Of a DNA stretch of 64,000 nt, positions 26,596-44,670 are shown piece after piece (positions within the stretch are counted from its first letter, which is position 1; each line of letters starts with the position of its first letter). This DNA is from Marivirga aurantiaca. GTDB lineage: Bacteria; Bacteroidota; Bacteroidia; Cytophagales; Cyclobacteriaceae. The notes under the pieces are model-generated. The model saw only the letters and a program-made list of their open reading frames with translations. It had not been told where the DNA came from and did no database searches. Location of the stretch: contig NZ_JAEQBW010000010.1 of NCBI RefSeq assembly GCF_016679925.1, positions 62,001 to 126,000 of the forward strand, written 5' to 3'. The translations under genes and the position numbers were made by a program.

Positions 26596-28491
26596 TTATT
26601 TCATAAATACATTCCACCATTCCTGGAAACAAATAAGTGCCCAAACATGCGCATGGCTGTCACCCGGATCGGATGAAAAAAGCTTTCTCTTAAGTTTTTC
26701 AACACCTTCCACATCAAAAATGGCTTGGGACTCAATAAAGTCCTGGCTGAGCCATTTATTATTGATATCTCCTTTTAACTGGTTTTGCAACCAACTTAAA
26801 AGCGGTACTTCAAATCCATGCTTGGGCCTATTGTAAATTTTGGCTGGTAATTTATCACGGAATGTATCTTGTAATATTCTCTTTTTCATACTGCCATTCA
26901 CCTTAAATCCTTCAGGAAGGCTATTGGCAAAAGCCACCAGTTCATGATCCAGAAAAGGCACACGTACTTCCAAAGCATGCGCCATGCTCATCAAGTCCAC
27001 TTTTTGAAGCATATCTCCTTGTAGCACCAATTGCTGATCCAATTGTAAGGCCTGATTAATTGAGGGTTGGGTGATATGGTTAAGTGTGCCAGACTTCCAT
27101 AAGTCAAAAGCTTCAAAATCTATCTCCTCCAACATATCATCAGATAAAATATCCGTTACTCCTCTGCCTGACTGTAAGCTTGCCAGTAACCAGACTTGTT
27201 CTGAAACATCTAATTTTGAGGCCTCCGCAAATTTACTTAATTGCCTGGCTTTATTAGCTAATGGATTATTTCGGGACTTAGGCAATAAATTCCATAGAAA
27301 GCCTAAAGACCCTGCCAATTTTTCTTTTAAGCCGGGATGCCATAAACGGTATAAAGCAGCATGTTTATTGTATCCGCCAAATAGTTCATCTGCTCCATCA
27401 CCTGACAATGCAACTGTCACCTTTTCTTTTGTCAGCTGACTAAGGGCATAAACAGGCAGGGCAGAACTGTCAGCAAAAGGCTCTGAAAATTGCCTGAGCA
27501 TTTTAGGTAAATAAGTGTATAAATCATCCAGACTAAGTTGAAAAACCTGATGCTCTGAGCCTATATGTTTGGCTACAGCATTGGCATATTCTGTTTCGTC
27601 AAAGTAAGAATGACCTTTATAGCCTATGGAGAAAGTATGAAGATGGTTGGTTTTTTCTGCAACCAGTGCCGATATAATGGAAGAATCCACTCCTCCACTT
27701 AAAAATGTACCTAAGGGGACATCAGCCACCAATCTGCGTTCTACAGACTGATTCATCAGTAACCTCAGCTTTTCCTGAGCTTCATTATAAGTGCCGCTAA
27801 ATTGTTGCCCAAAAGTATCTTTCAGCTGGTACCAATTGTTAATCTCTACCGATTTCTTTTTTACTACAGCATATTGGCCAGGCATTAACTTTTTAACACC
27901 TTTCACCATGCTCATGGGAGCAGGCAAGTAGTTTAATTGTAAATAGGTAAACAAGGCATTGGCATCTACTTTTTTTTCAATCCCAAATTTCATTATTGCT
28001 TTTAACTCGCTACCGAAAATGAAACGATCTTCATCCTTAAAATAATAAAGAGGTTTAATACCATAGCGATCCCTTGCCAGGAGGATTTCCTGTTTTTGCA
28101 CATCATAAAAGGCAAAAGCAAAAAATCCATTGAGTTGAGGGAGTGCATCTGCCCCATGATGAATAAGCATCTGTAGCAATACTTCAGTATCACTTTCAGT
28201 TTGGAAAGTTACTCCCCGGGAAGTGAGATCTTGCCTGAGTTGCTTGTAATTGTATATTTCCCCATTAAAAACAATTTGATACCTGCCATCATGAGCGGAC
28301 ATAGGTTGGTTTCCTGCAGAGGAAAGATCTATAACGGATAGGCGTCTGTGTCCCAACCCCACAAATTCATCTACATAAATATTTTGATGATCAGGTCCAC
28401 GATGGCTTAACTCTTCAGTAGCCAAAGATAAATTGGGGAGATTAAACCTTCCGATCTCATTAAAAGCAAATATTCCTGTTATGCCGCACAT
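26596..28491 (-). CDS. asnB: Asparagine synthase (glutamine-hydrolysing)
   Basis: 631-aa class II glutamine amidotransferase/asparagine synthetase. Cys2 of MCGITGIF is the glutaminase nucleophile, with HRRLSVIDLS and NGEIYNY in the N-terminal Ntn domain. The synthetase domain has the PP-loop SGGVDSS near residue 266 and ALSGDGADELFGGY. The length (about 630 aa) fits the subgroup often found with polysaccharide or capsule genes, as well as true asparagine synthetases, so the amide acceptor is uncertain. It starts 38 bp after the TolC-family gene on the same strand and may be the last gene of the TetR-ABC-HlyD-TolC operon. Confidence 0.92.
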   Translation of the reverse strand: MCGITGIFAFNEIGRFNLPNLSLATEELSHRGPDHQNIYVDEFVGLGHRRLSVIDLSSAGNQPMSAHDGRYQIVFNGEIYNYKQLRQDLTSRGVTFQTESDTEVLLQMLIHHGADALPQLNGFFAFAFYDVQKQEILLARDRYGIKPLYYFKDEDRFIFGSELKAIMKFGIEKKVDANALFTYLQLNYLPAPMSMVKGVKKLMPGQYAVVKKKSVEINNWYQLKDTFGQQFSGTYNEAQEKLRLLMNQSVERRLVADVPLGTFLSGGVDSSIISALVAEKTNHLHTFSIGYKGHSYFDETEYANAVAKHIGSEHQVFQLSLDDLYTYLPKMLRQFSEPFADSSALPVYALSQLTKEKVTVALSGDGADELFGGYNKHAALYRLWHPGLKEKLAGSLGFLWNLLPKSRNNPLANKARQLSKFAEASKLDVSEQVWLLASLQSGRGVTDILSDDMLEEIDFEAFDLWKSGTLNHITQPSINQALQLDQQLVLQGDMLQKVDLMSMAHALEVRVPFLDHELVAFANSLPEGFKVNGSMKKRILQDTFRDKLPAKIYNRPKHGFEVPLLSWLQNQLKGDINNKWLSQDFIESQAIFDVEGVEKLKRKLFSSDPGDSHAHVWALICFQEWWNVFMK

Positions 28492-43060: not shown

Positions 43061-43324
43061 ATGCAGTTCCAAATAGCCGACAAAGAAGTTATCCTCAATA
43101 AGTTAAATACTCTTATCAAAGAAAGCAACACATCAGTTTCTGACTGGAAAGTTGGAATAGCCTCTTTGCAAAGGGTTTCTTTATTAAATGTGCAAGAGGA
43201 AATTTATTATCAAAACTGTGAGAAGGAAATAGCCATTGAAATTATGTTTAATTTGATTGCCGCAGGAGTTCAAACTTGTAAAATGAGCAAATCAAATTTC
43301 AACGGGATATACCTTTACAGATAG
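43061..43324 (+). CDS. Hypothetical 87-aa protein
   Basis: Not recognised. An 87-aa soluble protein, amphipathic, with predicted helices (KEVILNKLNTLIKESNTS, QEEIYYQNCEKEIAIEIMFN) and two Cys residues. The ATG is preceded by a near-consensus -7 element (TATATTTA, about 43033). It stands alone between clpC and the terminator of the tRNA-like array. The codon use is ordinary for the window. I could not link it to the array. Confidence 0.5.
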   Translation: MQFQIADKEVILNKLNTLIKESNTSVSDWKVGIASLQRVSLLNVQEEIYYQNCEKEIAIEIMFNLIAAGVQTCKMSKSNFNGIYLYR

Positions 43325-43379: not shown

Positions 43380-43532
43380 CTGTAGAGGGAGGATTCGAAC
43401 CTCCAGGAAGAAGTTAGGCTTAGACATTCATCATAAACTGCGGAAACAGATTATCGTGAGTGCACTGAGCTTTATTCCATAGCCTTCACCCCCGAGATAG
43501 GAGGGCATGTTTGCCAGTTTCATCACCCTACA
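43380..43532 (-). ncRNA. tRNA-Leu-like RNA with giant variable arm, copy 1 (promoter-distal)
   Basis: 153 nt from acceptor to base 73, exactly the length of copies 2 and 3 but the most diverged. Acceptor TGTAGGG pairs with CTCTACA (one G-U); T8-G9; D arm ATG/CAT with a Leu-type loop; anticodon stem CCCTC/GGGGG with loop CTATCTC (anticodon AUC at 43498-43496); 84-nt variable region; T arm GGAGG-TTCGAAT-CCTCC; discriminator G; no encoded CCA. The long arm folds into a three-part stem. Compared with copies 2 and 3, T-stem and variable-arm pairs have changed on both sides, keeping the pairing. Function unknown. Confidence 0.8.
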
Positions 43533-43615
43533 AAGTACTCCACCGTAGCTTTAGCGAGGTGGATAGTTTAAAACTTTAACATTCAGCACTTTTTTAAACG
43601 CCTCTATGGCATTAG
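43533..43615 (-). ncRNA. Spacer/leader between tRNA-like copies 2 and 1
   Basis: Includes a conserved leader hairpin on the minus strand (TCCACC facing GGTGGA around a GCTAAAGC-containing loop) directly upstream of copy 1, and the shared trailer sequence after copy 2. The same leader hairpin precedes all three copies, so it may be needed for processing. Confidence 0.5.
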
Positions 43616-43768
43616 CTGTAGGGGAAGGAGTCGAACCTTCACGAAGAAGTTAGGCCCTGGAATTCACGATAAATTATAGAAACAAATTATCGCGAATTTT
43701 CAGAGCTTTATACTTAGGTCTTCACCCCCGAGATAGGAGGGCATGTCTGCCAGTTTCATCACCCTACA
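43616..43768 (-). ncRNA. tRNA-Leu-like RNA with giant variable arm, copy 2
   Basis: 153 nt. Acceptor TGTAGGG/CCCTACA (43768-43762 with 43623-43617), T8-G9, D arm 43759-43743 with an AAACTGGCAGA loop as in tRNA-Leu, G26, anticodon stem-loop 43741-43725 (loop CTATCTC, anticodon position 34-36 = AUC), variable region 43724-43641 (84 nt), T arm GAAGG-TTCGACT-CCTTC, discriminator G at 43616, no CCA. The variable region forms a basal GAAGA/TCTTC stem, a GCTCTG/CAGGGC stem and a distal hairpin of about 14 pairs. All tRNA tertiary-contact bases I could check are present (GG in the D loop, TTC in the T loop). Confidence 0.85.
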
Positions 43769-43865
43769 AGATACTCCACCATAGCTTTAGCGTAGGTGGA
43801 TAATTTAAAATCTTAACATTCAGCACTTTTTGCTGAACAGAATCTAAACGCCTCTATGGCATTAG
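43769..43865 (-). ncRNA. Spacer/leader between tRNA-like copies 3 and 2
   Basis: Carries the conserved leader hairpin before copy 2 and, unlike the other spacer, an extra complete hairpin TTCAGCA-loop-TGCTGAA at 43819-43837. The extra 14 bp explain why copies 2 and 3 are 250 bp apart while copies 1 and 2 are 236 bp apart. Confidence 0.5.
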
Positions 43866-44018
43866 CTGTAGGGGAAGGAGTCGAACCTTCACGAAGAAGT
43901 TAGACCCTGGAATTCACGATAAATTATAGAAACAAATTATCGCGAATTTTCAGAGCTTTATACTTAGGTCTTCACCCCCGAGATAGGAGGGCATGTCTGC
44001 CAGTTTCATCACCCTACA
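43866..44018 (-). ncRNA. tRNA-Leu-like RNA with giant variable arm, copy 3 (promoter-proximal)
   Basis: 153 nt and identical to copy 2 except for one base (43904, A where copy 2 has G at 43654 on the plus strand). That change turns a G-C pair of the GCTCTG/CAGGGC stem into G-U, so pairing is kept. First to be transcribed: the -7 promoter element is 65 bp upstream of its 5' end. Confidence 0.85.
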
Positions 44019-44050
44019 AAGTACTCCACCGTAGCTTTAGCGTAGGTGGA
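44019..44050 (-). promoter_or_regulatory. Leader hairpin before tRNA-like copy 3
   Basis: On the minus strand TCCACC pairs with GGTGGA around a GCTAAAGC-containing loop. The same element lies directly before copies 1 and 2, forming part of the repeated unit. Confidence 0.5.
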
Positions 44051-44082: not shown

Positions 44083-44090
44083 CAAAGGTA
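44083..44090 (-). promoter_or_regulatory. -7 promoter element of the tRNA-like array (TACCTTTG)
   Basis: Exact TAnnTTTG match on the minus strand. The predicted start near 44076 gives a short leader to copy 3. The -33 region falls inside the palindrome at 44102-44128. Confidence 0.65.
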
Positions 44091-44199: not shown

Positions 44200-44670
44200 A
44201 TGGAAGAAAATTATCAACTTGACAATACTGATTTAGCCATTTTAAATATTTTAATGCATGACGCACGCAAACCATTTACCGAAGTAGCAGAAGAAGTGTT
44301 TGTTTCTCCGGGAACAGTTCATGTAAGGATGCGGAAAATGGAAAAACTGGGCTTGATTAAAAATGCGCAGTTACAAGTGGATTTGGCAAAGTTAGGAATG
44401 GATGTTACAGCTTTTCTAGGGGTTTATTTACAGAAAAGCTCGCTTTACGACCATGTGGTAACAGCACTCAAAGCAATTCCTGAGATTGTAGACTGCCACT
44501 ATACAACAGGAGCCTATTCTATGTTTGTAAAGGTGATTTGCAAAGACACCAATCATTTAAAGAATATTCTGCATGATCATATTCAACCCATCGAAGGTAT
44601 TGAACGGACAGAAACTTTTATATCTTTGGAAGAGAGTATCAACCGACCTCTTGTATTGTCAAAGCAATAA
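44200..44670 (+). CDS. Lrp/AsnC family transcriptional regulator
   Basis: 156-aa feast/famine regulator. Helix-turn-helix at residues about 8-50 (LDNTDLAILNILMHDARK, VFVSPGTVHVRMRKMEKLGL), then the RAM/AsnC ligand-binding domain (ALKAIPEIVDCHYTTGAYSMFVKV). The ligand is probably an amino acid. The gene lies divergent from the tRNA-like array and a perfect palindrome sits between them, so it is the natural candidate to control both itself and the array. Followed by a MITE-like repeat. Confidence 0.93.
   Translation: MEENYQLDNTDLAILNILMHDARKPFTEVAEEVFVSPGTVHVRMRKMEKLGLIKNAQLQVDLAKLGMDVTAFLGVYLQKSSLYDHVVTALKAIPEIVDCHYTTGAYSMFVKVICKDTNHLKNILHDHIQPIEGIERTETFISLEESINRPLVLSKQ

Follow-up and report, generated by a model that had tools for sequence, protein, structure and literature searches.

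The window (the whole 64,000-nt stretch of Marivirga aurantiaca DNA analysed here) carries on its minus strand a tandem array of three tRNA-like RNA genes with repeated spacers, divergent from a gene for an AsnC-type regulator (Table 1). There are three copies of exactly 153 nt, as an initial sequence-only reading had it. In each, the acceptor stem has 7 bp and the D stem 3 bp, the latter with a Leu-like loop; an anticodon stem of 5 bp closes the 7-nt loop CUAUCUC; and the 84-nt variable region is followed by a T stem of 5 bp with the loop UUCGA(A/C)U. Units 1 and 2 are 99% identical and unit 3 is about 80% identical to unit 1, so that unit 3 holds nearly all of the variation among the window copies.

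Table 1. Features of the array and its upstream region, in window coordinates.
Feature	Position	Strand	Basis or remark
Unit 1, tRNA-like RNA gene, 153 nt	43866..44018	-	Sequence, homologues in relatives, folding
Unit 2, tRNA-like RNA gene, 153 nt	43616..43768	-	Sequence, homologues in relatives
Unit 3, tRNA-like RNA gene, 153 nt	43380..43532	-	Sequence, homologues in relatives, folding
TACCTTTG, -7-like element (TAnnTTTG), putative array promoter	44083..44090	-	About 65 nt upstream of unit 1
AsnC-type regulator of the Lrp/AsnC family	44200..44670	+	Divergent from array; NCBIfam AsnC, PDB, locus comparison

Neither ARAGORN nor Rfam 15 at its gathering scores reports any of the three units (there is no match to the tRNA family, RF00005, above gathering), the sole calls of both in the window being a tRNA-Ala and a tRNA-Ser. 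Folding of single copies gave a divided answer to the check originally suggested: unit 1 is far more stable than expected (z = -4.43, with none of 200 dinucleotide shuffles equally stable), but unit 3 only slightly outdoes its shuffles (z = -1.17, with 28 of 200 doing as well), and the lowest-energy structure predicted for it differs from the cloverleaf. Because unit 3 folds so weakly, single-sequence folding is no proof by itself and comparative data are needed. A tmRNA reading was rejected: a full anticodon arm is present, and ARAGORN calls no tmRNA anywhere in the window. A hairpin repeat resembling CCACCTACGCTAAAGCTACGGTGG stands before each unit (43540-43562, 43776-43799 and 44026-44049, minus strand), and similar repeats also come before units of a related genome (L005). 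Downstream of the array is an 87-aa open frame (43061-43324, plus strand) with no NCBIfam match.

Homologues proved abundant in Bacteroidota, where the absence of any had been named in advance as grounds for abandoning the idea. A DNA search found matches in 28 of 39 relatives. A covariance model built from 33 units was applied to 241 genomes from the GTDB order and 395 from the phylum. At E < 1e-17 it places the RNA in 173 of the 241 order genomes, in 23 genomes from three other families of the class (f23, f24 and f27), and in three genomes from another family of the phylum (f67); these large searches used stricter filters and may lose weak matches. A first tally of 225 of 241 had included weak model hits of 82-86 nt scoring under about 60 bits; judged by length and score these resemble ordinary tRNA-Leu and were rejected as members, so only hits with E < 1e-17 were counted. 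The set of 173 includes a 76-nt form in G036 and probably similar forms in G245 and G255, which have similar E-values, and omits G038, in which a contig end truncates the unit. Scanning named GTDB contigs by pattern yielded at least 119 stretches with a unit, from genera and families including Marivirga (M. sericea, L118, among them), Hymenobacter, Dyadobacter, Spirosoma, Algoriphagus, Cyclobacterium, Pontibacter, Flammeovirga and Saprospiraceae. The number of tandem copies ranges from one to at least six, the latter in G058. By blastn, a window unit had no match in the plasmid collection, nor did a window unit or one viral unit in the INPHARED phages, and no degenerate copies were found by the model or ARAGORN beside AsnC in eight stretches from genomes lacking the RNA (L268-L275).

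The alignments support the cloverleaf. On the 33-unit alignment, 99.4% of its pairs are standard, nine of 24 pairs have changed on both sides, and the covariation score was reached by none of 500 shuffles (a shuffle that ignores relatedness); six slid versions of the structure were all far worse. Acceptor (7 bp), D, anticodon and T arms (the last 5 bp, with a TTC(G/A)A loop) are thus those of a tRNA and are backed by covariation, and the stem at the base of the variable arm covaries clearly as well, appearing as GGAG/CUCC, GAAG/CUUC, GGGG/CCCC or GGUG/CACC. In 24 units of the Marivirga group together with two further relatives, at least one compensatory change was seen in 16 of 44 predicted pairs, many of them in the long arm. 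The view that this is a selected RNA, in which changes keep pairing, therefore holds in both alignments, and the units almost certainly form a real, conserved RNA family. That they are tandem tRNA pseudogenes or a selfish repeat, as the repeated copies and spacers of the array might suggest, is barely credible: compensatory changes, positions fixed across families, and the broad spread over related genomes refute it as a general account. The family appears to be previously undescribed, as had been supposed, as far as the literature and Rfam show: no Rfam family matched units in the window or in ten other loci, and no print description of such an RNA was found in the open full-text literature by title and start of abstract (subscription papers and preprints lying outside this scope).

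The variable arm was at first taken as the hallmark of the class. This did not hold: its length differs widely among relatives, and one relative is only 76 nt long, so the giant arm is not a family hallmark. The variable region is 39-123 nt long in 219 of 221 parsed host units; one of the other two has 7 nt, and the second, with 130 nt, contains a run of N. The short relative (G036, L217) has the loop CTATCTC and the same TGT...ACAG ends, and ARAGORN calls it a tRNA-Asp. Long arms nevertheless have recurring sequence: a loose GGxATAAA is found in 88 of 95 units and a loose CTAAC in 91, and many contain a sequence like GGGTTGACCAC. One unit with normal acceptor and loop (L025 1433-1550, minus strand) has an AT-rich variable region lacking both GGxATAAA and CTAAC.

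Fixed positions were read from 95 distinct units obtained by BLAST or the covariance model (the latter trained on 33 family units) with no loop pattern imposed: 99 hits, less two that were cut off and two that were identical. In the larger set of parsed units (221 host, 13 viral), loop conservation is in part imposed by the parse pattern. U1-A72, G2-C71, U3-A70, G73, U35, C36 and C38 are each present in all 95, as is a loop ending in TC(T/C)C. At position 34, 81 units have G, 12 have A and two have C; all three window units have A. Position 37 is U in 87, C in eight and a purine in none. At position 33, 77 units have U, which in the other 18 is replaced by G, A or C. Decoding tRNAs typically keep U33 and a purine at position 37; the units depart from them at position 37 in every case and at position 33 in these 18.

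The description tRNA-Leu-like thus fits the body of these RNAs but not their identity: the discriminator is G73 rather than A73 in 95 of 95 units, there is no Leu anticodon, and the commonest unit loop, CUGUCUC, resembles the CUGUCAC of host tRNA-Asp with a pyrimidine at position 37. The bacterial Asp determinants listed in one review are G73, G10, G34, U35, C36 and C38, with the second base pair minor, and G1-C72 is given there as strictly conserved in bacterial tRNA-Asp (PMC9976931). The units agree with this list in G73, U35, C36, C38 and the minor G2-C71 without exception; they disagree in G10, which just 12 of the 221 parsed host units have, and in having U1-A72 in place of G1-C72. U1-A72 is described as the pair recognised by GatCAB (PMC4206432), and among 34 distinct host tRNAs extracted it was seen only in tRNA-Asn and two tRNA-Gln. 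The fixed positions therefore combine marks for charging with aspartate and a mark for the amidotransferase on a loop with neither a kept U33 nor a purine 37. The RNA probably has Asp identity, and it is fairly likely to be a substrate of GatCAB.

Another possibility is that the RNA is charged with serine, for some use off the ribosome. SerRS is described as reading the long arm and G73 in tRNA-Ser and tRNA-Sec (PMC7609411), and the listed bacterial Ser determinants include G2-C71 (PMC9976931). The same list has C72, in place of which the units have A72 (PMC9976931); the base of the arm has the geometry of host tRNA-Leu, not tRNA-Ser; the 76-nt relative is nearly armless; and U35, C36, C38 and U1-A72 are not required by serine identity. 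Together these make a serine-charged RNA very improbable.

Units are also present in all 30 stretches found in IMG/VR, on which their viral status rests. In 26 of the 30, ARAGORN calls one or more further tRNAs, and 21 have at least three tRNA or tmRNA genes; five (L189, L191, L198, L207 and L208) have 20-26 such genes, with a tmRNA in three of the five. All of the 13 distinct units kept by the viral parse have the loop CUGUCUC with U33 and G34, the loop being partly imposed by the parse pattern; many other viral units have an insert in the D loop. In L183, L184, L189, L191, L195, L196, L197, L204 and L209, such an insert lies before the GG, and in several of these it forms a clear hairpin. 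One of the viral tRNA arrays includes a permuted tmRNA (RF04321; L208 634-855, minus strand).

The company of tRNAs and tmRNA in viral contigs, and the uniform U33 and G34 of the parsed viral units, could mean that the RNA is a special Asp or Asn tRNA used in translation and kept by viruses for that reason. A decoding role nonetheless appears decidedly unlikely for the family, given the pyrimidine at position 37 throughout the 95 units, the replacement of U33 in 18 of them and the variable position 34; moreover, the host already has a tRNA-Asp GUC. Of the two uses first suggested, in translation or as a charged tRNA put to non-ribosomal purposes, the second is the better supported.

If GatCAB acts on this RNA, the two might be expected in the same genomes, and for the most part they are. 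GatCAB was scored by a GatB search in the same genome samples as the RNA. In the order sample (241 genomes), 168 have both RNA and GatB, five RNA only, 46 GatB only and 22 neither (Fisher 1.2e-9, a test that ignores phylogeny). Fifteen of the 22 with neither are reduced genomes of family f8, and without them the association is much weaker (p = 0.008). The five exceptions with RNA and no GatB (G120, G162, G181, G194 and G202) are assemblies of at least 220 contigs each, two of which (G181 and G194) also lack AsnRS; the 46 with GatB only include G038, the genome with the truncated unit. Of the genomes with the RNA in the remaining orders of the class, 23 of 23 have GatB; in f67, three of three do. 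The rest of the class also includes genomes with GatB and no RNA (G305, G413 and G457) and, within two of the families that have the RNA, genomes lacking both (G266 and G382 in f23; G281 and G375 in f24). Elsewhere in the phylum many genomes have GatB and few have the RNA, so that GatB looks necessary for the RNA, not sufficient.

AsnRS and GlnRS were scored in 80 genomes hand-picked for contrast, which are no random sample: 78 of them have an AsnRS above cut-off, and 45 a GlnRS. Among the 45 with GlnRS, 24 have RNA and GatB, three RNA only, two GatB only and 16 neither (Fisher 1.9e-7, ignoring phylogeny and selection). One genome, G112, whose GatB match falls short of the cut-off, was taken as GatB-negative here and GatB-positive in the order table; counting it otherwise gives 24, three, three and 15 (Fisher 1.4e-6). 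The window's own genome has GlnRS, AsnRS and GatB together, so that GatCAB there would be without its standard duty. Such a combination was found in 67-68 of the 547 genera of one survey, which suggested that GatCAB may be vestigial in delta-proteobacteria having GlnRS, AsnRS and asparagine synthetase (PMC4206432).

Could GatCAB simply be acting on ordinary tRNA-Asn, charged by a non-discriminating AspRS? This route is documented for Bdellovibrio bacteriovorus (PMC4206432), host tRNA-Asn has U1-A72, and GatB occurs without the RNA in 46 of the order genomes. The RNA would then be a bystander, its association with GatB due to common descent and to the loss of both where a lineage had gained AsnB. 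Left unexplained would be the retention of U1-A72 in the RNA together with an Asp-type loop, and the fact that some members of f23 and f24 lack RNA and GatB together; on balance such an incidental association appears quite unlikely.

For asparagine synthetase, the comparison uses the hand-picked genomes. Among the matches listed (about 320 bits and up), canonical AsnB is present in none of 43 hand-picked genomes with the RNA vs 11 of 36 without it (Fisher 6.6e-5, ignoring phylogeny and selection); matches weaker than about 320 bits would be missed. This table omits G036, which has the short form of the RNA and no AsnB among the matches listed. The 11 genomes were first flagged by a match pattern in which TIGR01536 extends to about position 385 only; the AsnB equivalog model confirms seven (G266, G220, G285, G035, G382, G031 and G276), and the match pattern is the basis for the other four (G252, G356, G331 and G293, the last a frame with a stop). 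The broad asparagine-synthase family is absent, over cut-off, from four genomes with the RNA (G029, G034, G053 and G523) and six without. The window's genome has seven matches to it, of which the best four score 251-328 bits against an AsnB cut-off of 499 and are closer to amidotransferases of the exopolysaccharide type. The window itself encodes, at 26596-28491 (minus strand), an AsnB-like amidotransferase of this type that scores under the canonical AsnB cut-off.

The regulator beside the array scores 163 bits on the NCBIfam AsnC model (cut-off 227) vs 54 on Lrp, and its nearest PDB chain is E. coli AsnC (2cg4). A Lrp/AsnC-family gene lies divergently upstream of the RNA in 61 of 117 host loci (several of them from the same genera and so not independent), always in the same geometry and in 60 cases at a distance of 112-245 nt. 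Ten further regulators from different loci also score best on the AsnC model, at 155-179 bits and below the cut-off of 227, making 11 of 11 scanned. The other 56 loci have no AsnC-type gene within the 8-kb stretch, 15 of them ending before any upstream gene; no partner gene is common to these 56, one gene group recurring in about ten. Other recurrent neighbors are SufB/D (30 loci), acyl-CoA ligase (24, and also in four loci without AsnC), SufC (20) and SufS (12). The putative promoter element of the array fits TAnnTTTG, the Bacteroidota -7 consensus. Within 80 nt upstream, this motif is found in 114 of 217 host units vs a mean of 11.5 in mononucleotide shuffles, an approximately tenfold enrichment, and together with a -33 element in 40 units vs 1.3.

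The conserved divergent AsnC-type gene, with the loose GGxATAAA and CTAAC of the structured arm, raises the possibility that the RNA is a sensor or regulator, its charging state (with Asp, perhaps then Asn) being read by AsnC or another factor, as opposed to a source of asparagine in bulk. This seems unlikely: nearly half of the host loci are without an AsnC-type gene in the stretch, viral contigs carry the RNA among tRNA genes, and sensing alone would not explain the association with GatB.

The structure, the fixed elements, the AsnC-type neighbor and the co-occurrence with GatB can be read directly from the genomes. The best model for their combination, whose chances we put at roughly even, is that the RNA is a tRNA-Leu-derived, non-decoding carrier on which asparagine is made from aspartate. 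AspRS would load it with aspartate, reading G73 as discriminator and the GUC-type loop with its C38; GatCAB would then recognise U1-A72 and amidate the bound aspartate to asparagine. The loaded RNA would stay off the ribosome and take no part in decoding, because of the invariable pyrimidine 37, the U33 that is not kept, and the large variable arm. Asparagine would finally be released or passed on to the pool drawn on by AsnRS, and the divergent AsnC-type regulator may tune transcription of the RNA to asparagine.

Several observations count against this carrier model: the A34 of the window's copies and the 14 of 95 units without G34, the rarity of G10, the replacement of G1-C72 by U1-A72, the five genomes with the RNA and no GatB, and the 46 genomes of the order with GatB and no RNA. 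In addition, the exopolysaccharide-type AsnB-like amidotransferases of genomes with the RNA might themselves make asparagine. That asparagine supply is the purpose of the RNA is accordingly put forward only tentatively. About equally tentative is the fullest version, in which the RNA would be a dedicated cofactor of amino-acid biosynthesis, with AspRS and GatCAB making and releasing asparagine for general use under AsnC feedback.

Were this fullest version true, the RNA would take the place of the canonical asparagine synthetase (AsnB, in the comparison made here) in much of Bacteroidota; GatCAB would have a role in organisms that already possess GlnRS and AsnRS, and viruses would be carrying such an RNA beside their tRNA sets. 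The RNA is a concrete candidate for a GatCAB substrate in Bacteroidota, and offers an alternative to the vestigial GatCAB proposed for delta-proteobacteria (PMC4206432). It would also be a widespread RNA gene family whose 153-nt version escapes ARAGORN and Rfam; its tRNA body is apparently decoupled from decoding, and both hosts and viral contigs with tRNA arrays have kept it.

Among known RNAs, the units are closest in body to class II tRNA-Leu, sharing with the host's tRNA-Leu the D arm and loop, the 3-bp D stem and the base of the variable arm, where 4 bp are followed by GT ahead of the T stem. They differ from it in G73 for A73, in the first pair U1-A72, in the Asp-type loop with pyrimidine 37, and in the long structured insert that replaces the loop of the arm. 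With host tRNA-Asp they share G34 (in most units), U35, C36, C38, G2-C71 and G73, whereas the body is not that of tRNA-Asp, U1-A72 stands for G1-C72, position 37 is a pyrimidine and G10 is mostly missing.

The Bacillus cereus pseudo-tRNA and other non-decoding tRNAs are tRNA-like genes outside decoding. The former, likened here by description only, has another host and another proposed use, whereas the present RNA is conserved over several families. A separate case of tRNA remodeling was seen in contig C32 of G000 (L044 324-403, 716-795 and 1108-1187, minus strand): three tandem pseudo-tRNAs derived from tRNA-Asn, 392 nt apart and beside a real tRNA-Asn, have the anticodon arm replaced by ATCCCGCTTGAGCGGGA, and ARAGORN calls them Gly-CCC. 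A class II body is shared also with tRNA-Sec and the allo-tRNAs as described in PMC7609411, and G73 with tRNA-Sec; the units differ in their 7/5 acceptor branch, in the anticodon loop and in a variable region of up to 123 nt.

The nearest functional parallel is tRNA-dependent asparagine synthesis by AspRS and GatCAB on tRNA-Asn, with which the family has in common U1-A72, Asp-type charging elements and the presence of GatB in 168 of 173 genomes of the order that have the RNA. The difference is that the carrier here would be a separate, non-decoding RNA, so that the product would have to leave it and not enter the ribosome. Both tRNA-dependent asparagine synthesis and non-decoding tRNAs are known kinds; what would be new is a non-decoding carrier dedicated to GatCAB.
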